Below, one piece after another: positions 2,585 through 32,336 of a stretch of DNA of 34,120 nt. The DNA is from Acidithiobacillus ferrivorans (lineage in GTDB: Bacteria > Pseudomonadota > Gammaproteobacteria > Acidithiobacillales > Acidithiobacillaceae). The stretch is taken from NCBI GenBank assembly GCA_020723125.1, contig DYJM01000001.1:1-34120 (forward strand), read 5' to 3'. The first letter of the stretch is position 1. The number at the start of each line of letters is the position of its first letter. The notes beneath the pieces are model-generated. The model was not told where the DNA came from. It did not search any database and worked only from the letters and a program-made list of their open reading frames with translations. The translations under genes were made by a program, and so were the position numbers.

Positions 2585-3019
2585 TTATCCAGCGAGCATA
2601 TCATCAAAGTCTATCAATCTGGAAAAACGGAGATTTTCATCTCTTCGTTCACCGTGCATAATGGACCACTCCAGTCGCAAATCTGCAATGATTGGCTCAC
2701 AAGCATACACCGCTTCCAGATCATTGAACATATTACAGTGGGCCAATTTGAGCAGCAGGTAGCGATACAAGCGGTCCAGGCGCGCAGTCACGGCCTTCGG
2801 CGTTTCTCCTCCCAAATGTAGAAGCAGATGTTGTACGAGTTGTTCGGCGCGTTCTACCGCCACCCGTTTGGCCACATAATCACGACGCTCGAGGGCGTTC
2901 TGGATGCGCAATAAATAGGCTACAACGCCTTCCAGGCCGAGCTGCACCAGTGAAAAATCGCTTTGCCGAATGGAATCCAGACGCTGGTCACGCGCAGATC
3001 GCTTTGATGTATGGTGCAT
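2585..3019 (-). CDS. FliS-like flagellar chaperone paralogue heading the fliL-motAB unit
   Basis: The 144-residue product aligns along its core with the canonical FliS at 27901-28281: LVQLGLEGVVAYLLR versus LVLLGLEGILEYIRR, then LDRLYRYLLLKLAHCNMFNDLEAVYACEPIIADLR versus LDSLYRFLLNQLAQANIFDDLQALDACQPVLVDLR. FliS proteins are four-helix export chaperones for flagellin. This copy lacks the N-terminal AYKQ tyrosine segment used by FliS to contact flagellin, has a basic N-terminus (MHHTSKRSARDQR) and an extended C-terminal tail, so its client may differ. The ATG at 3019 is supported by a GGGGAGAG Shine-Dalgarno 5 bases upstream and a sigma-28 promoter at 3051-3078. The frame is open further upstream, but that part overlaps the promoter. 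Confidence 0.85.
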   Translation of the reverse strand: MHHTSKRSARDQRLDSIRQSDFSLVQLGLEGVVAYLLRIQNALERRDYVAKRVAVERAEQLVQHLLLHLGGETPKAVTARLDRLYRYLLLKLAHCNMFNDLEAVYACEPIIADLRLEWSIMHGERRDENLRFSRLIDFDDMLAG

Positions 3020-3050
3020 AATGGCTCTCCCCACCCCCGCAATGAACAGG

Positions 3051-3078
3051 ATAACGGCACATCTCGGGGAAAACTTGA
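3051..3078 (-). promoter_or_regulatory. Sigma-28 (FliA) promoter for fliS2-fliL-motA-motB
   Basis: On the minus strand the sequence reads TCAAGTTT, 12 bases, GCCGTTAT. This matches the FliA -35/-10 consensus (about TAAAGTTT, 11-12 bases, GCCGATAA). It is nearly identical to the element before fliC in this window (TCAAGTTT, N12, GTCGTTAT). Transcription would begin near 3044, giving a ~25-base leader carrying the Shine-Dalgarno of the FliS paralogue. Function is inferred. Confidence 0.85.
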
Positions 3079-3121
3079 GGATGTCTCTTCCACAAAGACC
3101 AGAGCTGGAAAACTCGAATAG

Positions 3122-3137
3122 TGGCATGGCTTTTGCT
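3122..3137 (+). promoter_or_regulatory. Sigma-54 (RpoN) promoter for the first diguanylate cyclase
   Basis: TGGCATGGCTTTTGCT has GG and GC separated by exactly 10 bases and fits the -24/-12 consensus TGGCAC-N5-TTGCW with one mismatch. Predicted start is near 3148, just before a GGAGG Shine-Dalgarno (3152-3156) and the ATG at 3163. The activator is likely FleQ or FleR, both encoded here. Confidence 0.75.
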
Positions 3138-3162: not shown

Positions 3163-4044
3163 ATGACAGCACAATCACAAAGTGAAACATACGCGCATCA
3201 AAATGAGGCTTCTCAAGTTGACAGCAGCCCCTATCTGGCTGACCTCGTTAATTTTTATGAAGCATGGAAATCATTCTGGCAGCTTTGGCTACGCGAGCAC
3301 CTGCAAGGACGCCCATTACCTCGACAAGCCGAGCAAGACGTACTGCAATCCTTACATACACCGGAAGCGCGGATCCCGGAAGGACGTCGAGTGTTTTGGC
3401 AGGACCTCCAGAAAAGCTACCACAACATTCAGCAAAAACTGCAAGATCTCGATTTCAATGAGGAACCTGCCAATAATTTATTGGCAGTGATGAATGCCGC
3501 CGAGGCTCTTGAGCGCCAATGTTTTGACGAAATCGTGGCATTCAGTAGAAACCTGGGGGAAGTGGATCCACTCACTGGCCTGCTCAATCGTCGCCGTATG
3601 GAGGAAGACCTCTGTCGCGAACAGGCTTTGGTTGACCGTGGTGCTTCTGCATTTATTGCCATGCTGGATGTGGATCATTTCAAGAGCTTCAATGACCGCT
3701 TTGGACATCTGAATGGTGATCTTGTCCTGAAGGAGCTTTCCCGCCGTTTGCACTCTGCTCTGCGCCCTTACGATGGATTGTATCGTTACGGTGGCGAAGA
3801 GTTTTTGACCATATTTCCGCAAATGCATAAAAGCTGCGCCCTGCTTACTGCGCAGAGATTGTGTCAAAAAATCGCCTCCGCTCCCTTTCCGCTGGAACAA
3901 CACCCCCCTGTTCAGGTAACCATTTCCATCGGGATAACTTCCTTGCTGCCCAATGTGCCATCCCATGAGCGGATTGCCATTGCCGATGCCGCACTGTATC
4001 AGGCCAAACATGAAGGGCGAAACCAGGCGCGCCTGCTGCCTTGA
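3163..4044 (+). CDS. GGDEF diguanylate cyclase (first)
   Basis: The 293-residue enzyme is predicted to make cyclic di-GMP from two GTP. The C-terminal GGDEF domain spans about residues 133-290. It has DPLTGLLNRR, the metal-binding DVDHFKSFND (169-178), the active-site loop RYGGEEF (GGEEF 210-214) and ADAALYQAKHEGRN near the end. An RxxD product-inhibition site is present as RPYD (201-204), five residues before GGEEF. The N-terminal ~130 residues are helical, rich in Trp and Gln, have no membrane segment, and match no domain I can name. The ATG has a GGAGG 6 bases upstream and the gene follows a sigma-54 promoter. Both this and the next gene run opposite to the flagellar operons. Confidence 0.93.
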   Translation: MTAQSQSETYAHQNEASQVDSSPYLADLVNFYEAWKSFWQLWLREHLQGRPLPRQAEQDVLQSLHTPEARIPEGRRVFWQDLQKSYHNIQQKLQDLDFNEEPANNLLAVMNAAEALERQCFDEIVAFSRNLGEVDPLTGLLNRRRMEEDLCREQALVDRGASAFIAMLDVDHFKSFNDRFGHLNGDLVLKELSRRLHSALRPYDGLYRYGGEEFLTIFPQMHKSCALLTAQRLCQKIASAPFPLEQHPPVQVTISIGITSLLPNVPSHERIAIADAALYQAKHEGRNQARLLP

Positions 4045-4113: not shown

Positions 4114-5676
4114 ATGACCCACAAAACTCCCACAGAGATTGCACGGGAAGCCCTTAAACGCCTTATGGAGCTTGGTTTATCACCGACCCCTGAAAATTAT
4201 ACGCAGTACTATCATGAAATTTCTGGAACGCATAGCACCTCCGAAATAAATTGGCAGGATCTTATGCGCCGCTTCTGTACGGAATGGGAAAGATCGCAAG
4301 CGGGTTTATCGCATCTTCAAAAAATAATAGCTAAAAATCAGCTTCTGGACGAAAAAAATACCGGCACTTTGGCCATAAAACTGGAACAACTTCTCCAAAA
4401 ATGGGAAAAACTTCCCACACGTCAGGTAAAAACCAGTCGCGAAGAAACCAATCATGGTGCTTCGGAGGAGGTAAATTGTGAAGGCTGGCAGAAATTATTC
4501 AAAATGTTTATCCGCCATTCCTTACGGGAGCAAGACCCGCCTGGCGCACTCCTTCTGGAGCAACTGGATGGGCTTCTCAACGAAAAGGAAATCCAAGCGG
4601 GTGCGCTGTTTCCTTTAGCCAGAGATATATTACAACACCAGCAGGAGCTGGATGAAAAAGAAATAAAAATACGCAAAGGATTACAGGAAGTTTTGCAATT
4701 ACTGCTGAGAAACGTTGCCGACCTGCTTGATAATGACGCATTTATGTCCGGGCAAATGGATGTGGTGCGCCAGGCCGTGCAAATTGCCGATAATCACGAA
4801 GAGCTGGATTTGGCGATCAGTCGGGTAAAAGAAGTCATTTTTCAGCAAGGGAAACTCAAATCTGAACTCAGAGAAGCCCGCGAGGCCATTCGTGATCTCG
4901 TGAATCTGGTGCTGATGTCTGTCGAAAGCATGGCCGGTGAAAACGGACGCAATCACCAGCAACTGGAGAGCCTTGTCAATGAACTGGACAGCACGACAGA
5001 TTGGCAGCAAATACGAAAAATTGTCAGCAAGGTCTTGGACACCAGCAAGAACATCGCCAAGCAATCCATTGAAGCAAGAAACACCCTGATCCAGGCAAAA
5101 AATCGTCTGAGCGCTGCCCAGGAAAAAATTCGCAAGCTGGAAGAAGAAATGGAATCCATCAGCCAGCTCGTCCACGTGGATCCCTTGACGGGAACACTGA
5201 ATCGAAGGGGGCTGAATGCGGCCTTTGTGCGGGAATCCGCTCGAGCCCAACGTCTCAATGAACCACTGGCCGTCGCCATTGTCGATATTGATCACTTCAA
5301 AAAAGTCAATGATCAGCATGGACACGATCTGGGTGATCAGGTGTTGCGGGGAATGGTCAAGGTTTTACGGGACACCTTGCGCGCCAATGACGTCATCGCC
5401 CGTTACGGAGGTGAAGAATTCGTCATTTTGATGCCCGATACGACGCCCGAAAATGCATTGGATATTCTGGAGCGTGTGCAAACCCGACTGGGGCAGCAGC
5501 TATTTCAGACTCAAGACCAGCCACTGAAAATCAGTTTCAGCGGCGGAATCTGTGTCTGGCATAATTCCTGTAGCCAGGAACAAAGCATAGCTGCCGCCGA
5601 CAAGGCCATGTATCGCGCTAAAAAAGATGGGCGTAAGCGTATTTACCTGGCTGATCAGGCAAATTCATCCACTTGA
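4114..5676 (+). CDS. GGDEF diguanylate cyclase with long helical N-terminus (second)
   Basis: This 520-residue protein carries a complete C-terminal GGDEF domain (about 350-515). It has DPLTGTLNRRG, DIDHFKKVND (391-400), RYGGEEF (GGEEF 432-436) and an RxxD inhibitory site RAND (423-426) at the correct 5-residue distance. The first ~350 residues are almost entirely helical and soluble, ending in a coiled coil at about 310-352 (heptad-rich, KLEEEMES). The N-terminal PTPENYTQYYHEISG resembles the opening of a group of coiled-coil diguanylate cyclases, but I cannot assign a Pfam domain. It starts 69 bases after the first cyclase; the Shine-Dalgarno is weak. Its last 22 bases overlap the convergent small ORF. 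Confidence 0.92.
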   Translation: MTHKTPTEIAREALKRLMELGLSPTPENYTQYYHEISGTHSTSEINWQDLMRRFCTEWERSQAGLSHLQKIIAKNQLLDEKNTGTLAIKLEQLLQKWEKLPTRQVKTSREETNHGASEEVNCEGWQKLFKMFIRHSLREQDPPGALLLEQLDGLLNEKEIQAGALFPLARDILQHQQELDEKEIKIRKGLQEVLQLLLRNVADLLDNDAFMSGQMDVVRQAVQIADNHEELDLAISRVKEVIFQQGKLKSELREAREAIRDLVNLVLMSVESMAGENGRNHQQLESLVNELDSTTDWQQIRKIVSKVLDTSKNIAKQSIEARNTLIQAKNRLSAAQEKIRKLEEEMESISQLVHVDPLTGTLNRRGLNAAFVRESARAQRLNEPLAVAIVDIDHFKKVNDQHGHDLGDQVLRGMVKVLRDTLRANDVIARYGGEEFVILMPDTTPENALDILERVQTRLGQQLFQTQDQPLKISFSGGICVWHNSCSQEQSIAAADKAMYRAKKDGRKRIYLADQANSST

Positions 5677-5821: not shown

Positions 5822-6565
5822 TCATTCCGCATAAAAACTTTGGAGTCGTCCTTCAATGAGTTTCGGGTTTTCTCCTTCCGCAATGCCGACCAGACCTTCA
5901 ATGATCATCTCCCGCAAATAATTCTGCTGGTGAACAATGCCCTTAAGCTTGTTGGAAATGGGAAGAAACAGCAAATTGGCAGAGCCTACCCCATATATCG
6001 TGGCAACGAAGGCGGTGGCAATACCCGCTCCCAACTTTGCCGGATCGGCAAGGTTTTCCATCACGTGTATCAAACCCAGAACCGCACCGAGGATACCTAT
6101 GGTCGGTGAGTAGCCACCCGCTGACTCAAACACCCGCGCCGCCTGACGTTCAATTTCCGAGCGGGAATCCATATCCACTTCGAGGGTAGCACGGATTTTG
6201 GCAGGCTCTGAACCATCTACCAGCATCTGCAGCCCTTTGCGCATGAATGGATCGGTGACGCTTTCCAATAATCCTTCCAAAGCCAGCAGACCATTTTTGC
6301 GCGCCGTATTACTCCATTCCAGAAGCTCTTGAATGATCGGTTGAGGATCTGTTTTGGGGGGCAAAATAATCCACGGCACCATTTTCAAGGAACGTACAAA
6401 AACCGGGAGCCGATACTGCACCATCACCGCCCCCATGGTGCCGCCAATGACTATGATAAAAGCCGTAAGCTGCAAAATGGAACTCAGCTTACCACCTTCC
6501 AGCACTTGCCCTAAAAGTATCCCGCCAAAGGCCACCACCAGCCCTATGATTGTCAAAAAATCCAT
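5822..6565 (-). CDS. motC: MotC, second MotA/PomA-type stator subunit
   Basis: The 247-residue protein belongs to the MotA/PomA/ExbB proton-channel family and matches the usual MotC length. Helix 1 is at 2-24 (DFLTIIGLVVAFGGILLG), helix 2 at about 30-50, a cytoplasmic loop with the ARKNGLLALEGLLE and DPFMRKGLQMLVDG signatures, helix 3 GYSPTIGILGAVLGLIHVM and helix 4 GIATAFVATIYGVGSANLLFLPI. It starts 12 bases after fliA. In Pseudomonas, MotC pairs with MotD, a MotB-like protein encoded next to it. Here no motD follows, so MotC would need MotB (144-1157) or a partner encoded elsewhere. Confidence 0.93.
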   Translation of the reverse strand: MDFLTIIGLVVAFGGILLGQVLEGGKLSSILQLTAFIIVIGGTMGAVMVQYRLPVFVRSLKMVPWIILPPKTDPQPIIQELLEWSNTARKNGLLALEGLLESVTDPFMRKGLQMLVDGSEPAKIRATLEVDMDSRSEIERQAARVFESAGGYSPTIGILGAVLGLIHVMENLADPAKLGAGIATAFVATIYGVGSANLLFLPISNKLKGIVHQQNYLREMIIEGLVGIAEGENPKLIEGRLQSFYAE

Positions 6566-23649: not shown

Positions 23650-25014
23650 TTATCCCAAATCATAACCGGCTTCCCGAAAGCGCTGGATTTTGTGGCGCAA
23701 AGTCCTGGGACTGATGCCCAAACGCTCTGCGGCCTGAGTCTTTGAACCACGACTCTGGCTCAAGGCCAAGGCAATGGCTTCGCGTTCATGGCGGGCACGC
23801 AGATCATCCAGGGCCACAACCGGGTCTGCAGTTTCTACCGCCAATGTAGGACTCTCCCCAGGTAAAGGTATGCTTGCAGACGATCCCTGTAAACCCAGAT
23901 CATCTACTTGAATGTCATTTTCTACCGAGAGAATGAGCGCACGTTGCAGGGCATTTTCCAGTTCGCGCACGTTGCCGGGCCATTCATAAAAGCAGAGCTG
24001 CTGTTTTGCTGCCATACTGAGCCCTTTTACGGGAAGCCCCATCTGCTGACAGTGCCGCCTCAACAAGTGCTCGGAAAGCGGCAAAATATCCGCCTGGCGT
24101 TCGCGCAATGGCGGAATCCGTATGGGAAAAACCTGCAGTCGATAATACAGATCTTCGCGCAGTACGCCTTCTGCCACGGCCTGGCGCAAATCCCGATTAC
24201 TGGTGGCGATCAGCCGAATATCGAGGGTAATGGTCTGCTTGCCGCCGACCCGCTCCAGCTCCCGCTCCTGCAGCACCCGCAGTAATTTGGCCTGCAATTG
24301 AACAGGCATTTCTGTCACTTCATCCAGCAGCAGCGTACCGCCTTGAGCCTGCTCGAACTTTCCAGCGCTACTCTGCGCCGCACCCGTAAATGCCCCCTTT
24401 TCATGCCCGAACAAAGTGGCTTCGAGAAGGGTTTCCGGAATGGCCGCACAATTGACAGCAATAAATGGCCCCGCCTGACGGCGGCTTTGCTGGTGGATAT
24501 AACGGGCCAACACTTCTTTCCCCACACCGCTTTCGCCCATCAGCAATACGGTGGCATCCGTGGAAGCTACCTTTTTCGCCATTTCCAGCGTTGCCAACAT
24601 GGCCGGAGACTGCGCTACAGGTCCCTGGCTATCGGCCGGCAAATGCGGAATAGCAAATTTACGCAGCTTTTCCAGCAGAACATCTACCGTAAAGGGTTTC
24701 ACCACATAATCTACCGCACCATTTTGCAAAGCCTGCACCGCCTCGGAAATCGTACCCCAGGCGGTCATCATCAATACCGGCGGTGCGTCATGTTGTACGC
24801 TCAAGCTTTTCAAAAGGGCATAACCATCCATGGGACGCATCTGCACATCACTGACCACCAGATCAAAAGACTTAGCCGCCAACAGGCGTAATGCCGCCGT
24901 TCCATCTTCGGCCCATTGCACCCGGTAGCCCTGATCCTCCAGCCCCTCCTGCAAGGCTTCGGCCAGATATTCATCATCTTCAACCAGTAAAATGCGTGCC
25001 TGGTATTGCTCCAT
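23650..25014 (-). CDS. fleR: FleR/FlrC-type sigma-54 response regulator
   Basis: This NtrC-family activator is phosphorylated by FleS and turns on mid-class flagellar genes with RpoN. From the ATG at 25014 it has 454 residues. The receiver domain (1-~120) has the acidic pair in LLVEDD, phospho-acceptor Asp56 (VVSDVQM), Thr84 and Lys106. The AAA+ domain (about 135-370) has Walker A GESGVGKE (160-167) and the sigma-54 loop GAFTGA (207-212). A Fis-type helix-turn-helix closes the protein (SKTQAAERLGISPRTLRHKIQRF). The 25014 start is preceded by AGGAGTAGGAAGC and lies 5 bases after fleS; a longer frame reaches 25068 inside fleS. Confidence 0.95.
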   Translation of the reverse strand: MEQYQARILLVEDDEYLAEALQEGLEDQGYRVQWAEDGTAALRLLAAKSFDLVVSDVQMRPMDGYALLKSLSVQHDAPPVLMMTAWGTISEAVQALQNGAVDYVVKPFTVDVLLEKLRKFAIPHLPADSQGPVAQSPAMLATLEMAKKVASTDATVLLMGESGVGKEVLARYIHQQSRRQAGPFIAVNCAAIPETLLEATLFGHEKGAFTGAAQSSAGKFEQAQGGTLLLDEVTEMPVQLQAKLLRVLQERELERVGGKQTITLDIRLIATSNRDLRQAVAEGVLREDLYYRLQVFPIRIPPLRERQADILPLSEHLLRRHCQQMGLPVKGLSMAAKQQLCFYEWPGNVRELENALQRALILSVENDIQVDDLGLQGSSASIPLPGESPTLAVETADPVVALDDLRARHEREAIALALSQSRGSKTQAAERLGISPRTLRHKIQRFREAGYDLG

Positions 25015-25019
25015 GCTTC

Positions 25020-26225
25020 CTACTCCTGACTCATTGAACCGCTGGGCAATGGCTGGGCAACCTGCCATAACGGCAGCAGCAGCACCAGGCAGGTACCGGG
25101 AGATACCTTTTCCAGCTCCATGCTTCCCCCCATGGCCACCACAAAATTACGGGTAATAGCCAAACCCAATCCGGTGCCATCCCGGCGAGTGGTATAAAAT
25201 GGGATGAAAATCTTTTCCTGATCCGCTTCAGCAATACCCGGGCCAAAATCCCGAATGCTCAAGCGCAGGGTGCCTTGAGCAACTTCTTCAAGCCTGATGC
25301 TGACTGACTGTCCAGCGTTGCTGAAAAGCAGCGCATTATGCAGGACATTGGCCAAGACGCTGACCCAGGCAGCCAGGGTCCCCGTCAAAAACCAGTCATC
25401 CCGTGCATCGCCAATTTCCAGAGTGACATTTTTTTGACGAAATTGTGCTTCCCATTCCCGCTGCAAGGCATGAAGAATTTCGGTCAAAGCCACAGAGCCG
25501 CTTTCCTGCTCCGCACCGCGCAAAAAACGCAGCATGGCATCAATGGTCGCATCCAGATGTTGCAACCTTTCCAGCGCGCGCTGCTGTTGCCGTGCAAAAT
25601 GTTCGGGACCACGTTCAAATTGCAGCTGTGAAACAGAAAGCAGCGCCGTGGCCAAAGGTGTGCGCAATTGATGCGCCAGTCCTGCCATCGTTTCTCCCAT
25701 GGCAGCCAGACGTTCCCGGCGCTGGGCAGCCTCCTCACGGGCGCGCGCTGCTGTCACATCCTGCAATAAAATCACCTGTCCACCCTCGCCCGGCAACGCA
25801 TTGACAGCAAGTGTCACCTGTACCGGCTGATCTCTGCCAGGACCACGTAACAGCAACCACTCATTCCCGGGACCCGACATGGGTCTGGGTTGCAAGGCCT
25901 GCCAGTCGGAACCACGCAAATCCGCTCCCAGCAAACGAATTGCTTCCGGATTCATTTCCACAATCAGCGCCTCATGATCCACCACCAATACCGCGCCAGG
26001 GAGCATTTCCAGAAGCAAAGCAAGGCGTTCACGCATTTGTTCCTTGGCTTGCAGTTCGGCGCGAAGACGCACGTTCGCCTCTGCCAGTTCTGCGGAAAGG
26101 CGTTGGACTTCCTGCTGCAGGGCTCCGTAGGCTTCCGTCAGTTCTTGTGAAGTTTGGTTGAAGAGTTTGAACGCTTCGATAAGACTCGAAGCATCCGGCA
26201 AGGGCGGAGAGCCTGCATCGGACAT
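25020..26225 (-). CDS. fleS: FleS/FlrB-type soluble sensor histidine kinase
   Basis: FleS is a cytoplasmic PAS-containing kinase that phosphorylates FleR. From the ATG at 26225 it has 401 residues. An N-terminal coiled coil (about 15-72) leads into a PAS domain (about 70-165). The H-box has the phospho-accepting His185 in LAHQLRTPLATALLSVSQL, and the catalytic ATPase part shows the N-box (LANVLHNALLFSN), G1 (DFGPGIAE) and G2 (GTGLGLAIT). No membrane helices are present, so the signal is intracellular. Its start overlaps the fleQ stop as TGATG, and its stop lies 5 bases before fleR. Confidence 0.94.
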   Translation of the reverse strand: MSDAGSPPLPDASSLIEAFKLFNQTSQELTEAYGALQQEVQRLSAELAEANVRLRAELQAKEQMRERLALLLEMLPGAVLVVDHEALIVEMNPEAIRLLGADLRGSDWQALQPRPMSGPGNEWLLLRGPGRDQPVQVTLAVNALPGEGGQVILLQDVTAARAREEAAQRRERLAAMGETMAGLAHQLRTPLATALLSVSQLQFERGPEHFARQQQRALERLQHLDATIDAMLRFLRGAEQESGSVALTEILHALQREWEAQFRQKNVTLEIGDARDDWFLTGTLAAWVSVLANVLHNALLFSNAGQSVSIRLEEVAQGTLRLSIRDFGPGIAEADQEKIFIPFYTTRRDGTGLGLAITRNFVVAMGGSMELEKVSPGTCLVLLLPLWQVAQPLPSGSMSQE

Positions 26226-27295
26226 CAATGATCCACGTCCCTGATCGTGCTCAGTCCGTATTTTTTCAGTTTCTCGACCATGGTCGTCCGGCGCAGCCCC
26301 AAACGTTCTGCAGCACGGGCAACCACCTGATCGCACATCGCCAGCGCCTGCAGCAGGAATTCCTTTTCGATTTCTTCCAGATGCAATTTGAGATCAAAGG
26401 GCGGCTCCGGCAAGCTCAGCGAAGGCTCTGCCCACACGGCGGCAAGACTTTGCCGTTCATCCTGCAACTCCAAATTTTCCACATTGCGCATGCGGGCAGG
26501 CAGGTCTGCACAGGAAAGCTTTTCGCCGCCATGCAAAATCGCCAGTCGCTCTGCCAGATTGCGCAGCTCCCGGACATTCCCGGGCCAGTGATAGGCATCC
26601 AAAGCCCGCAGGGAATCATCATCAAGGGTAACGGGCAGATGACCTTCAGCGGTCAATTTGTCCATGAAATGGGCGAAGAGCAAGTGGATATCACCCGAGC
26701 GATCGCGCAGGGGCGGCACATGTACCGGAAAAACATTCAGACGGTAGTACAGGTCTTCTCTAAAGCTGCCCTCCCGAATCCGCTCCTCCAGATTACGATG
26801 CGTAGCGGCCAGTATCCGCACATGGCTCTCCATCACCCGCGCACCGCCCACCCGTTCAAATTGTTTTTCCTGCAGTACACGCAGCAGTTTCACCTGCATT
26901 TGCGGACTCATTTCAGCAATTTCATCCAGAAAGAGGGTGCCGCCCTCGGCCAGTTCAAAACGGCCCTTACGCGCGGCCAAAGCCCCCGTAAAAGCGCCTT
27001 TTTCATGACCGAAAAGCTCGCTTTCCATCAATTCTTCGGGAATCGCCCCACAATTCACCGCCACAAAAGGACCCTGACTACGCAAGGAATGCTGATGCAG
27101 ACAGCGGGCTATCACTTCCTTGCCCGTACCCGATTCACCCAGAATCAAGACGGTAGTGTCCGTTTTCGCCACCTTGGCCAGCATCTCTGTCATCCGCTGA
27201 ATAGGCACACTGTTGCCAACCAGTCCGCAACTTTCTTGCGACAGGCTGCGCCTCTCCAGAGTTGATCCGTTTTCCGTGCTGACTTCAGTGTACAT
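26225..27295 (-). CDS. FleQ/FlrA-like sigma-54 activator lacking the N-terminal receiver domain
   Basis: The AAA+ and C-terminal regions closely follow Fle[12 protein letters not shown], Walker A GESGTGKE (53-60), GAFTGA (100-105), LFLDE (121-125), and the [27 protein letters not shown], which is close to FleQ's own. At 356 residues it is about 130 shorter than P. aeruginosa FleQ. The whole N-terminal FleQ domain is missing; only ~25 residues precede the AAA+ core. The LFRS motif that in FleQ precedes LVG and binds c-di-GMP is replaced by ESCG. It sits 12 bases after the PilZ gene and is coupled to fleS. It is probably the master activator, with a control mode unlike FleQ. Confidence 0.9.
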
Positions 27296-27307: not shown

Positions 27308-27850
27308 TCATTCTGCGGACAAACGATGATCCTTTTGCCGCGCTATGGAACGCCGATGATGACGGAATATTAGTCGATCCAGTGATTCTTGCACGCGCGC
27401 GTCTAGCTGAAAGTGCAAATGATAGCGAAATAGCGTTTCTGCGTTGCCCTCCGGCTGAGTCACTGACATCTGGAGGATGCCCGGAAGAAACAGTGGCATG
27501 GCAATCCTGGGGCGCAAAAAAAGGGCCACGCAGACCGGGCCATGCTCAAGGGGAAACTCTGCCGAAGATTCAGTCTCCCAATACAGATCTTCTGCACCCA
27601 GCGCGCAGGGATGAGATGGTGGCAAAGGTTCCAGCCCCTGTATGCCCTTACCCACCAGGAGCAGCAGCAAATCGATTTTGGTTTCCAGGCTACTGATGGC
27701 TTCCCGGTTGTCGTCGTCCATCAGCAAGTGATCATCCATCACCAGGAGCGCCCTGAGAAGCGCCAGATTATCCAGCATCAGACGAGCGCGTCGCGCAGCG
27801 TCTACTTCACCCTTCTCCAGACTCAGGGGAAGCACATCTTCCAGTACCAC
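27308..27850 (-). CDS. Atypical PilZ-domain protein at the fliT/fleP position
   Basis: The product resembles atypical, oligomerising PilZ proteins found in flagellar loci. It has an N-terminal DVLPL segment, a central helix LETKIDLLLLLVGKGIQGLEPLPPSHP, beta-rich sequence (LEHGPVCVALFLRPRIAMPLFLPGILQMSV), and a C-terminal helix VQESLDRLIFRHHRRSIARQ. The c-di-GMP motifs RxxxR and (D/N)xSxxG are not visible: the position of the latter reads HPCALGAED. It probably does not bind c-di-GMP in the classical way. The frame's first standard start is the GTG at 27850, but a strong AAGGAG (27880-27875) lies 24 bases further up, next to in-frame ATT (27868) and CTG (27865). It lies between fliS and the FleQ-like gene. 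Confidence 0.75.
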   Translation of the reverse strand: MVLEDVLPLSLEKGEVDAARRARLMLDNLALLRALLVMDDHLLMDDDNREAISSLETKIDLLLLLVGKGIQGLEPLPPSHPCALGAEDLYWETESSAEFPLEHGPVCVALFLRPRIAMPLFLPGILQMSVTQPEGNAETLFRYHLHFQLDARVQESLDRLIFRHHRRSIARQKDHRLSAE

Positions 27851-27874
27851 GGCATGCTGCTCCAGAATCAGTCA

Positions 27875-27900: not shown

Positions 27901-28281
27901 TCAGGAATGACCCAGCAGTCCCCTCCACGCGTCGCGCAGATCTACCAGCACCGGCTGGCAGGCATCCAGCGCCTGCAAATCATCAAAAATATTGGCTTGT
28001 GCCAACTGATTTAACAGGAAACGATAAAGACTGTCGAGATTTTTGGCAATTTCACCGCCCTGCTCGAAGTTCACACTGGCCAAAAGGTGGGCGGTCAACT
28101 GGTAGGCCTTGTCCATGGAATCGGCCTTGGCACTCAGGTCCTTGGCCTGAATTGCCAAACGGGCGCGCCGGATATATTCCAGAATTCCTTCCAGTCCCAG
28201 CAACACCAGACGATCACTGGAAATTCCCTGATTGCCGACTTGCTTATATGCCTGCATGGCCGCCGCTGTGGCTACACTCAT
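27901..28281 (-). CDS. fliS: FliS, flagellin export chaperone
   Basis: FliS binds the disordered C-terminus of flagellin and delivers it to FlhA. The 126-residue four-helix protein has the conserved N-terminal tyrosine segment MQAYKQVGNQGISSDRLVLLGLEG. The conserved core FEQGGEIAKNLDSLYRFLLNQLAQANIFDDLQALDACQPVLVDLRDAW follows. GGGAGG lies about 10 bases before the ATG and overlaps the fliD stop region; the intergenic gap is 15 bases. It clusters with flaG and fliD as usual. A divergent second copy is at 2585-3019. Confidence 0.96.
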   Translation of the reverse strand: MSVATAAAMQAYKQVGNQGISSDRLVLLGLEGILEYIRRARLAIQAKDLSAKADSMDKAYQLTAHLLASVNFEQGGEIAKNLDSLYRFLLNQLAQANIFDDLQALDACQPVLVDLRDAWRGLLGHS

Positions 28282-28296
28282 AGCTTAAAACCTCCC

Positions 28297-30237
28297 TTAA
28301 CCACTGGAGCTCGAACTGGACGAGCTGGAACTGTTGGAAGAATAAAATGCATTCAGATACTGACTGGTAGATTGCAGAGAAGACAGTTGTGACTGCATGG
28401 CAGCAAACTGCTGGGTAAGCAAAGCGGTCTGATTGGCGGCCGACTGCTGCAAGGTTGTAATCTGCGCCCCCAGGCCATTAATGGAAGAAGTAATACCATT
28501 CTGGGCGGCGCTCACAAAACCACTTTGGGTATTCAGCGCCGAGCTCAGAAGCGCACTCATCTGTTGATACAAACCCTGACTGAGGGTTACCGAACCAAGA
28601 TTGCCGGTGCTGTTTCCGGTAATGCTGACCTGCAAGCCCGAAGCATTCCCCGGACCAGTGACGGTCATGGTTTGACCGGAACCGCTGGTACTTTGACCAT
28701 TAATCGTCCCCGCCACATTGGTTCCGGTAGCCGTGAGCAAGCTGGTACCAATGCCTGTACCGCCAGAACCTGCCGCCACGTTGGATTTTACGGTGAAAGA
28801 CTGGGCGCTCCCATAGGCATTGGACTGCAATTCCAGATAACCATTATTGGCGCTGGCGGTAATGCCCGTCATGCCCGACTGCTGCAATGTATCGTTGATG
28901 GTATTCACAATATCATTGAGGGTGCTGCCCGAACTCAAGGGCACCACTACCGAACTGGCCCCCGACCCAAAAGTCAGGCTTTCGCTCTGATGAATACCGC
29001 CGGAAGGTATGGCAGCACTCCCCGAAGTGCTGGCCTGGGTCGCGGCATGGCTCACATTGATGGCATAAGTCCCGGCCTGCGTAGCGCTGGTCGCGCTGAG
29101 ATACTGGACATTGGCGTTGCTGGTACTGCCCGCCTGCCCGAACAGGCCCGCCACCGTATTGAAATCAGCAGAGAGCGCTGTAGTCAAAGTGCCGGTATTC
29201 AGACTGATCGTACCACTGCTGGTGAGTCCCAAACCCACACTGCCCAGGGAGTTATACGCGCTACCCGAAGAAATTCCGATACCCTGTCCGGAGATCATAT
29301 CCAGCAATTGGGTCCGCAAACTCTGCACCGAAGCATCACCCAACAGAGGACCACCGGAACCAGTCTGAGCATTATAGGCGGTCAACTGGTTGATGGTGCC
29401 CATGGTCTTATTGAAAGCACTCACAAAGCTCTGCACACCCGTCACAAAACCACTATTACTGCTGCTAACCTGCAGGGTTGCACTACCGCTGGCCTGCAGC
29501 AAATTGAGTGTCACCCCGGGAATGGCACCGGAAATCGTATTGGTCGCACTGGTAACCGGCAAACCGTTAATGCTGACACCAGCATTTTGAGCCTGTTGGC
29601 TCAAGGTCATGGAACCTGATGCACCACTGCTGTAGCTGAGCGAAGATAAGCTGCCGGTTGCACCACTGGTACTCACCGAGAAAGCACTATTCACCCCTGT
29701 ACCCTTTCCGGTCAAAGTCAGGCGGTAGCCGGTGCCATCATAGACAACGGCGGCATTCACTCCGGTGTTGGCCTGATTGATGGCACTGGCAATGCCATCC
29801 AGACTGTCATTGGAAGCGTCGATGGTCACATTCTGGACAGCACCACTACCCACCCGAATTTGCAGGGTACCGGTACCCACTGAATTGGTGGCGCTGGTAA
29901 AATTGCCGGAATAAATACTCTGGGACTGGGCCAGGACCATATTACTCAGACTGTAACTGCCCAACGGCGCATTGGCAGAGACCGTAGCCGAAGCCGCATT
30001 GTCATTGGAAAGGGTAACGCTGCGATTATTGGTATTGCCCAGATTCTGCAAGCTGCTCATGGCGGACTGCAAACCGGAAAGACTGTTTTGCAGGGTACCC
30101 CAGGCACTTAAAGTCGTTTGATAGGATTGTTGCTGATTTCGCAGGATAGTAATAGGGGCCTGATAAGCCGCACTTAAATTCGTAATAAGTGACTGGACAT
30201 CAATGCCACTGACCAAACCAGATAGCGAAGCGGTCAT
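28297..30237 (-). CDS. fliD: FliD, filament cap protein
   Basis: FliD is the hook-associated cap that folds flagellin subunits at the growing filament tip. From the ATG at 30237 (AGGAG 10 bases upstream) the product has 646 residues and starts MTASLSGLVSGIDVQSLITNL, the family N-terminus. The hook-IN motifs and the middle Ser/Thr/Gly-rich domains D2-D3 follow. The C-terminal coiled coil contains LNGLGAQ-like and ALLTQQFAAMQSQLSSLQSTSQYLNAFY. The end is unusual: about ten consecutive serines. It is longer than many FliD proteins (about 450-480). It starts 36 bases after flaG. Confidence 0.96.
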   Translation of the reverse strand: MTASLSGLVSGIDVQSLITNLSAAYQAPITILRNQQQSYQTTLSAWGTLQNSLSGLQSAMSSLQNLGNTNNRSVTLSNDNAASATVSANAPLGSYSLSNMVLAQSQSIYSGNFTSATNSVGTGTLQIRVGSGAVQNVTIDASNDSLDGIASAINQANTGVNAAVVYDGTGYRLTLTGKGTGVNSAFSVSTSGATGSLSSLSYSSGASGSMTLSQQAQNAGVSINGLPVTSATNTISGAIPGVTLNLLQASGSATLQVSSSNSGFVTGVQSFVSAFNKTMGTINQLTAYNAQTGSGGPLLGDASVQSLRTQLLDMISGQGIGISSGSAYNSLGSVGLGLTSSGTISLNTGTLTTALSADFNTVAGLFGQAGSTSNANVQYLSATSATQAGTYAINVSHAATQASTSGSAAIPSGGIHQSESLTFGSGASSVVVPLSSGSTLNDIVNTINDTLQQSGMTGITASANNGYLELQSNAYGSAQSFTVKSNVAAGSGGTGIGTSLLTATGTNVAGTINGQSTSGSGQTMTVTGPGNASGLQVSITGNSTGNLGSVTLSQGLYQQMSALLSSALNTQSGFVSAAQNGITSSINGLGAQITTLQQSAANQTALLTQQFAAMQSQLSSLQSTSQYLNAFYSSNSSSSSSSSSSG

Positions 30238-30273
30238 AAATCTTTTACTCCTGCACAATAAATTTCAAAAAAA

Positions 30274-30681
30274 TCAGGCCTTGGTATTCATCAGGCTGCC
30301 GGGTTGCAATGCGTCTCCGGTTTCAGCACTTTTCACGACCTGTTCGGCCGGTATGTAATATTCAAAAAATGTTTGTTTGGTGCCTTTATCAATGAGTTTC
30401 ACCAGAACCTGTCCGGGATGCGTCCCGTCCGGGTCCAGACCAGCCTCTAAGGTAACAGAAGCACTTGCCGGTAAATTATTTTGTAATTTCTGAATGGCCT
30501 GCTGCACTTTTTCAGGATGCAATGTTTTGTTTCTGGGTGCTGTTGAAGTTATATCCAAGGTATTTTGCTGCGCTGTTGACGGTCGCGTCGGCGGAACATT
30601 CGCCTCACTCCCTTGCTGCGTCTCAGAAACTGCGCCTCCGGGTATAGATAGCAAACTCCTTGCCATAGAGAGAGCATCCAT
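30274..30681 (-). CDS. flaG: FlaG-family protein
   Basis: FlaG proteins are small factors encoded beside flagellin and cap genes that influence filament length. The product is 135 residues from the ATG at 30681. The C-terminal family domain (about 65-125) contains KVQQAIQKLQNNLPASASVTLEAGL, followed by VLVKLIDKGTKQTFFEYYIPAEQVVK, matching FlaG's L-x-F-x-x-D-x-x-x-x-x-x-x-V-x-V-x-D pattern in spacing. GGAG lies 7 bases before 30681, favouring it over the ATG at 30687. It is preceded by the fliC terminator hairpin. Confidence 0.9.
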   Translation of the reverse strand: MDALSMARSLLSIPGGAVSETQQGSEANVPPTRPSTAQQNTLDITSTAPRNKTLHPEKVQQAIQKLQNNLPASASVTLEAGLDPDGTHPGQVLVKLIDKGTKQTFFEYYIPAEQVVKSAETGDALQPGSLMNTKA

Positions 30682-30698
30682 GTTCATTCTCCACTGAT

Positions 30699-30729
30699 AA
30701 AACTCTCCCACCCTGCAGAAGTGGGAGAG
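30699..30729 (-). terminator. Intrinsic terminator after fliC
   Basis: On the minus strand a perfect 9-bp stem (CTCTCCCAC / GTGGGAGAG, arms at 30721-30729 and 30703-30711) closes a 9-base loop and is followed by TTTT (30702-30699). It lies 24 bases after the flagellin stop and just before the flaG Shine-Dalgarno, so flaG and later genes are reached by read-through or from a promoter not recognised here. Confidence 0.8.
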
Positions 30730-30752: not shown

Positions 30753-32336
30753 TTAGGGCAGAAGCTTGAGGTAGCTCTGCTGCAAGGCGTTTTCCTGCGC
30801 CAGGGTAGAAATACCTGCCTGTTGCAGAATCTGATACTTGGTCAACTGCGAAGTCGCCTGCGCGATATTCGCATCCTGAACCACCGACTGCGCAGACTGC
30901 AGGTTGGTAGCCGTAGTCTGATCATTGGAGACCGAAGCCTGAATCCGGTTCTGGACGGCACCCAGACTACCGTTTTGCTGGTTCAGATAGTTGATGGCCT
31001 GATCGACAATACCGATGGCCTGCTGGGCACCGGCGGCGGTGCTGACGTTGATATCAGATACCGCTGAGCCATTCAGGCTGGCTGCCTGGGTACTGAAACC
31101 AATATTTCCCCCATTGCCAATGGCGTAAGAACTGGCAGACTCAAATTGCACCGCCCCCTGAATCAGGGCGTTTGCAGAACCACTGGTGATGGCTGCCCCC
31201 ACACTCGAAACACCGCTGCCACTGACCGCCTGGAGGGAACCTGTGGAACCAGCAGCGAGACCCCCGCTACTCAAAGCCCCGGTAGATGTGATACCAGCCG
31301 AAATGTTGATGTTGTCACCGTTCGCATTGGTCAGCACTAATTCCGTAGTGCCATTGACAGTCTGCGTACCCGCCGATATACCTGTAACAGCCGCCTGATT
31401 ATTGATGGCCGTGACCAGCGAACTAATATTGGCCTGACCGTTGGAACCCTTAGTGACATCAGCAGAAATATTAACTGCATTGGTTGGGGCACCACTACTA
31501 CCATTACTGAGAGTAAAGGTGTATGTACCTGTGGCAACCGTAAATGCAACACTGGTGTAAGCCCGAGCAGTAACACCAGTCTGTGCAGAAACACCGTTCA
31601 CCGCAGCGGCAAGATTGGCGGCAGACTCAGTATTGGAATTCACATTCACTGTGGCGTTACCGGCGCTCCCCTGAATGGTCAAACCACTTGCCCCTGAACC
31701 GGCAGTAAAATTACCCGCACCACTGGCACTGATCGTAAATGCACCACCAGCAGCATAACCACCCATCTGAAAAGATCCGCTGCTTGTGTATGCCCCTCCT
31801 GATACAGTCGTAGAATAGTTACCCATTGAAGAGGTAGTTGTATCTGCAACCGCCACATTGATAATCTGGTTGGAGTTGGCACCTACCTGGAAAGCGGCAC
31901 CCGCAAAAGTACCATCCAGCAGATTTTTGCCATTGAACTGGGTCTGGGTGGCAATGGTTTGCACCTGCGCCAACAATTGACTGACAACGCCTTGCAGAGC
32001 CTGCCGGTCTGAAGTGGTGTTGGAAGCGTTAGCTGCCTGCACCGCTGTAGTCCGAATCTGCTGCAACAGGCTGGTCTGGTTCTGAATGGCACCTGTAGCC
32101 GTCTGCACCAGAGAAACACCCTGGTTACCGTTGGAAACCGCCTGATTCAGTCCGTCAATCTGGGTCTGAAAACGTTGGGCGATGGCATAACCCGCAGGGT
32201 TATCCGCCGGACCGTTGATGCTCTTGCCCGTGGACAACTGCTGAAGGTATGTATTGAGACTTCCTTGCGTACCATTTAAAGCGTTCAGCGTACTCAATGC
32301 TGAGGTGTTGGTATTGATAATTCCTGAAATTGCCAT
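30753..32336 (-). CDS. fliC: Flagellin
   Basis: This is a complete 527-residue flagellin. The N-terminal D0/D1 is classical: MAISGIINTNTSALSTLNALNGTQ, then LSTGKSINGPADNPAGYAIAQRF and QTATGAIQNQTSLLQQIRTTAVQAAN. A Gly/Ser/Thr-rich variable middle (about 160-430) includes repeated flagellin-IN-like units. The C-terminal D1/D0 closes with VSNDQTTATNLQSAQSVVQDANIAQATSQLTKYQILQQAGISTLAQENALQQSYLKLLP. AAGGAG sits 7 bases before the ATG, the sigma-28 promoter is at 32404-32431 and an intrinsic terminator follows, so it is monocistronic in the main. Its 3' third closely matches the neighbouring flagellin. Confidence 0.97.
   Translation of the reverse strand: MAISGIINTNTSALSTLNALNGTQGSLNTYLQQLSTGKSINGPADNPAGYAIAQRFQTQIDGLNQAVSNGNQGVSLVQTATGAIQNQTSLLQQIRTTAVQAANASNTTSDRQALQGVVSQLLAQVQTIATQTQFNGKNLLDGTFAGAAFQVGANSNQIINVAVADTTTSSMGNYSTTVSGGAYTSSGSFQMGGYAAGGAFTISASGAGNFTAGSGASGLTIQGSAGNATVNVNSNTESAANLAAAVNGVSAQTGVTARAYTSVAFTVATGTYTFTLSNGSSGAPTNAVNISADVTKGSNGQANISSLVTAINNQAAVTGISAGTQTVNGTTELVLTNANGDNINISAGITSTGALSSGGLAAGSTGSLQAVSGSGVSSVGAAITSGSANALIQGAVQFESASSYAIGNGGNIGFSTQAASLNGSAVSDINVSTAAGAQQAIGIVDQAINYLNQQNGSLGAVQNRIQASVSNDQTTATNLQSAQSVVQDANIAQATSQLTKYQILQQAGISTLAQENALQQSYLKLLP
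30757..31070. repeat. Direct repeat, copy 1 (flagellin 3' region)
   Basis: This stretch aligns without gaps to 32490-32803 (constant offset 1733 bases). Runs such as GGCAGAAGCTTGAG and CTGCCTGTTG are identical. It encodes the conserved C-terminal D0/D1 region of both flagellins, so the similarity reflects gene duplication. Confidence 0.75.

Follow-up and report, generated by a model that had tools for sequence, protein, structure and literature searches.

The gene between fliS and a fleQ-like gene in the window, a stretch of 34,120 nucleotides from Acidithiobacillus ferrivorans, encodes a clear member of an already known family, tPilZ (PF16823), and is itself ordinary. The best explanation of the locus is that tPilZ would be a flagellar accessory gene of the FlgZ/XC_2249 type standing in its ancestral slot just before fleQ. 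The fliT gene, whose usual position is between fliS and tPilZ, would have been lost in this lineage, where both the REC domain and the c-di-GMP site would also have disappeared from fleQ. As a whole, this explanation has a probability of about 0.8.

The open frame of tPilZ (27308-27868, minus strand; identified by Pfam, by its match to the folds 3PH1 and 3RQA, and by its relatives) has 186 codons if read from ATT at 27868 and 180 if read from GTG at 27850. The co-orientation and tight spacing reported by the earlier note are exact: fliS (27901-28281) ends 32 bp upstream, the fleQ-like gene (26225-27295) begins 12 bp downstream, and all are on the minus strand. When aligned with its relatives, the gene shows ATT (27866-27868) exactly where its four nearest relatives (L022, L023, L024, and L030) have ATG behind a GGAG. 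This may be a rare ATT start, the in-frame GTG (27848-27850) may be used instead, or the draft assembly of 306 contigs may be in error. The substitution of ATT for the ATG of four near relatives could also be the mark of a gene decaying in this strain, but this is very improbable. The rest of the frame is intact, the GTG lies only 18 nt downstream and has its own GGAG at 9 nt (spacing taken from the sequence), the ATT may be a draft-assembly error, and dN/dS relative to its relatives is 0.21-0.37. Such values correspond to purifying selection and argue for a working gene. The faster evolution of tPilZ, compared with fliS and fleQ, counts against the best explanation. All 20 of the sampled Acidithiobacillaceae that carry tPilZ (the genome of the window being counted) have it at this position, and this conservation, together with purifying selection, indicates that the arrangement is more than chance. 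Scans for promoters gave 30 sigma-54 sites where 29.4 are expected, which is uninformative, and no match to the sigma-28 pattern.

Among Pfam families, only tPilZ matches the protein (E 6e-9, 36.6 bits for a cut-off of 25). PF07238, the canonical c-di-GMP-binding PilZ, and FliT (PF05400) are not matched in Pfam, and no family is assigned by NCBIfam. The sole meaningful match in a sequence search of the PDB is the tetrameric PilZ protein XCC6012 of Xanthomonas. With 68 homologues as input, AlphaFold gave a model (pLDDT 83, pTM 0.78) that in structural comparison, Foldseek included, aligns along its whole length with 3RQA and 3PH1 (154-155 residues, Z 14.8), whereas canonical PilZ domains come next with Z of 9.1 or less. 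In the model, a strand (3-13) is followed by two helices (18-40 and 48-70, of 180 residues) and then by further strands, i.e., the helices interrupt the PilZ barrel after strand 1. The earlier note was right about the PilZ type and the oligomerisation helix, but not in placing the latter strictly at the N-terminus. The heptad positions of helix α3 are I52, L55, I59, L62, and V66, with the e/g pair E56/K58. Among the 68 homologues, the a/d positions are hydrophobic in 76-99%, the e position is acidic (with Q in three), and the g position is basic in all. These charges match the D75/K77 pair of the tetramerising α3 heptads of XCC6012 (PMC3131395). The heptads are kept, and the protein is very probably a tetramer assembled through α3.

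The motifs for c-di-GMP binding tell a similar story to that of the earlier note. The D/NxSxxG motif is absent, as it had stated. Its claim that RxxxR is also absent holds in substance, as none is found at the canonical place before strand 1, but not to the letter, as three overlapping strings (RLIFR, RHHRR, and RSIAR) occur, all in the C-terminal helix. The protein itself probably lacks useful c-di-GMP binding. The same helix contains the invariant basic stretch IFRxHRRxxA, which could, as a weaker guess, be a candidate contact surface.

Among 40 close relatives, 25 carry tPilZ; across the class, 66 of the 274 sampled genomes do. Gene order was read in 60 stretches beyond those of the close relatives, and in 80 further loci from named genomes. 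The usual order in Gammaproteobacteria is fliC-fliD-fliS-fliT-tPilZ-fleQ-fleS-fleR, and Pfam confirmed the identity of FliT for five of the genes that separate fliS from tPilZ. In Acidithiobacillaceae, the gap between fliS and tPilZ never exceeds 44 bp, and a search of their genomes for FliT found none that is convincing, in agreement with the absence of fliT noticed earlier in the window. Among tPilZ loci with both fliS and FleQ in view (some genomes being counted twice), 66 have fliT and a full-length FleQ, and 45, from Acidithiobacillaceae and Thiomonas-like betaproteobacterial clusters, have no fliT and a receiver-less FleQ. Eight, mostly from Halieaceae, have a receiver-less FleQ and have kept fliT, and four (e.g., L041) have a full-length FleQ and no detected fliT. 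As all four combinations exist, the loss of fliT, the loss of REC, and the presence of tPilZ are uncoupled.

This gene order rules out that the PilZ protein replaced FliT, as the earlier note had proposed. Relatives carry fliS-fliT-tPilZ-fleQ, and fliT is simply missing here; having been lost from between two old neighbours, it leaves tPilZ only apparently in its slot. The arrangement that the note itself had named as contrary to its reading, the same PilZ beside FliT and a full-length FleQ, is largely what is observed (the 66 loci above). One may still suppose that, once fliT had gone, the functions of FliT as FliD chaperone and controller of FleQ passed to tPilZ: fliD is kept while fliT is missing from the block and gives no convincing match elsewhere in Acidithiobacillaceae, and tPilZ now adjoins fliS. 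This is highly unlikely. FliT and tPilZ are separate proteins that occur together in most lineages and in X. oryzae (PMC5550985), which means that the role of tPilZ predates the loss of fliT. Moreover, tPilZ contains no FliT-like sequence according to Pfam, and rearranged loci keep it with fleQ, not with fliS. We found no evidence for a takeover of the chaperone role.

The other genes of the block are also on the minus strand. Upstream are fliD, the filament cap (28297-30258, with FliD_N and FliD_C in Pfam), a flaG-like gene (30274-30711, recognised by its position in the block and by a match to FlaG below the cut-off, E 0.004), and the flagellin gene fliC (30753-32336, from its sequence and a homologue in the same place in relatives). 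The fliS product, the flagellin export chaperone, matches PF02561 with E 3e-29. Downstream, Pfam identifies a fleS-like sensor kinase (PAS-HisKA-HATPase, 25020-26225) and a fleR-like response regulator (REC-AAA+-HTH, 23650-25068). The likely start of the former is the ATG at 26225, which overlaps the fleQ stop; the listed frame begins upstream, at GTG 26336. A second, divergent FliS-like gene (2585-3127, minus strand; Pfam FliS E 4e-14) is found in the same flagellar cluster, and in most flagellated Acidithiobacillus relatives. Two proteins with GGDEF domains carrying GGEEF (3163-4044 and 4114-5676, plus strand) are encoded beside motA (5822-6565). In the whole genome, profiles match only three GGDEF proteins and one PF07238 PilZ protein (YcgR-like, on the same flagellar contig), which suggests that the c-di-GMP network is very small and built around flagella. 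A. ferrianus MG has a second fleQ-fleS-fleR set, preceded by another tPilZ copy that is truncated (100 amino acids; L045 5733-6035 / L154).

The fleQ-like gene encodes a sigma-54 activator, as shown by Pfam, alignment, and PDB matches that are best with FleQ and FlrA. Its GAFTGA, Walker A, and Fis-type HTH are intact. With about 23 residues preceding its AAA+ domain, the protein has no REC domain; PF06490, the N-terminal REC of FleQ, has no match in the genome or in the genus. The receiver-less FleQ described by the earlier note is thus confirmed. The c-di-GMP motif of FleQ is defined by LFRS, RN, and ExxxR (PMC10333796; residues in PMC10723142), and these are degenerate here, reading ESCG, RC, and HFMDK, respectively. 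Among the FleQ proteins read, none of 55 receiver-less ones keeps any of the three motifs, and 78 of 117 full-length ones keep them all, although in both sets several genomes are counted twice and relatives are not independent.

Receiver-less FleQ proteins probably arose at least twice. In the FleQ tree, those of Acidithiobacillaceae and of the Thiomonas-like clusters may form one group, with weak support, and joining Halieaceae to this group is rejected (p-AU 0.024). The loss of REC in Halieaceae is thus probably separate from the one in Acidithiobacillaceae. In this test, L034 and L144 were counted with the receiver-less group, as they are labelled full-length only through early-starting frames (68 and 100 residues before AAA+). 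In Halieaceae and related genomes (L176, L178, L191, L192, L199, and L201), the receiver-less FleQ has ~370-382 amino acids and no c-di-GMP motifs, and both fliT and tPilZ are kept. Thiomonas and other betaproteobacteria (L139, L142-L153, and L155) have fliS-tPilZ-fleQ without fliT and a receiver-less FleQ like that of Acidithiobacillus; a transfer of the flagellar cluster between these groups is possible.

The survey of loci leads us to reject a special pairing of tPilZ with receiver-less FleQ. The earlier note had seen in the two a candidate regulatory pair, and one can extend this idea by supposing that tPilZ makes up for the REC domain or the c-di-GMP input that was lost. The consistent loss of the motifs with REC, on at least two occasions, goes in this direction, as does the presence of tPilZ next to nearly all receiver-less FleQ genes seen, although these were mostly collected through tPilZ. 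Such a specific pair is nevertheless unlikely. Most tPilZ genes adjoin fliT and a full-length, c-di-GMP-competent FleQ, and 93 loci, most with the c-di-GMP motifs, show that a full-length FleQ is just as usual a neighbour for tPilZ. In 40 genomes with FliS and without tPilZ, the FleQ adjacent to fliS is nearly always full length, yet one is receiver-less (G216/L242), so that the co-occurrence of the two is not specific. Finally, tPilZ has no c-di-GMP motifs of its own. It is also unlikely that, where FleQ has lost REC and the c-di-GMP site, tPilZ would be an allosteric subunit in its own right, acting on FleQ in place of the control of oligomerisation by REC.

What an ordinary tPilZ would do is best approached through Xanthomonas, where deletion of XC_2249 lowers motility, the orthologue favours both motility and virulence, and no reliable binding of c-di-GMP is seen for XCC6012 (PMC3131395, PMC6637768). 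By analogy, tPilZ would most likely be a tetrameric accessory factor that promotes motility and is insensitive to c-di-GMP. This motility role is borrowed from a genus in which several PilZ proteins overlap, and with an identity to XCC6012 of ~20% the function may have shifted. By the same analogy, tPilZ rather likely acts by protein-protein contact, supporting flagellar motility or the expression of flagellar genes. Gene order points to FleQ as the best single candidate partner, if tentatively, because tPilZ stays with fleQ in rearranged blocks: it accompanies fleQ but not fliS in 12 loci, and fliS but not fleQ in two. That tPilZ persists next to FleQ variants differing so widely speaks against a contact specific for the REC domain or the c-di-GMP site. 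An equally tentative alternative is that tPilZ is in the block for co-expression only and acts on another target, such as the motor, chemotaxis proteins, or a GGDEF/EAL partner bound to c-di-GMP. There are known cases of degenerate PilZ proteins working via a c-di-GMP-binding partner, namely FimX-PilZ and Filp-PilZX3 (PMC6637768), and the flagellar contig has the two GGDEF genes; that broken blocks repeatedly leave tPilZ linked specifically to fleQ speaks against it.

Although its 2011 description made it an orphan of xanthomonads, tPilZ turns out to be common in a fliS-fliT-tPilZ-fleQ block, in about a quarter of the sampled genomes of the class. FleQ has repeatedly lost its REC domain along with the c-di-GMP site, and these receiver-less proteins provide a natural set of c-di-GMP-blind FleQs with which to ask what tPilZ does.

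The closest known system is XCC6012/XC_2249 of Xanthomonas campestris (PDB 3PH1, 3RQA), which has the same Pfam family, whole-length fold, two inserted helices, and heptads as tPilZ in the window. Its gene too lies in a flagellar block, preceded by fliC-fliD-fliS and followed by rpoN/fleQ (PMC3131395). Xanthomonas differs in having a fliT-like gene in between, other regulator genes separating tPilZ from fleQ, and a FleQ with a longer N-terminus (L044 and L066). FlgZ of Xanthomonas oryzae (PXO_06169) is likewise an atypical PilZ gene co-transcribed with fliS (PMC5550985), but its operon, fliS-fliTX-flgZ, includes a fliT-type gene and is followed by a response regulator and rpoN2. As for the neighbour, its AAA+ and HTH domains align end to end with those of FleQ of Pseudomonas aeruginosa, from which it differs in having no REC and in the change of LFRS, RN, and ExxxR alike. 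Acidithiobacillus FleQ proteins without the FleQ domain have been noted before, and most of their c-di-GMP residues were said to be kept (PMC6416229); the protein in the window is receiver-less like them, whereas in our alignment all three motifs are degenerate in it and in its relatives.
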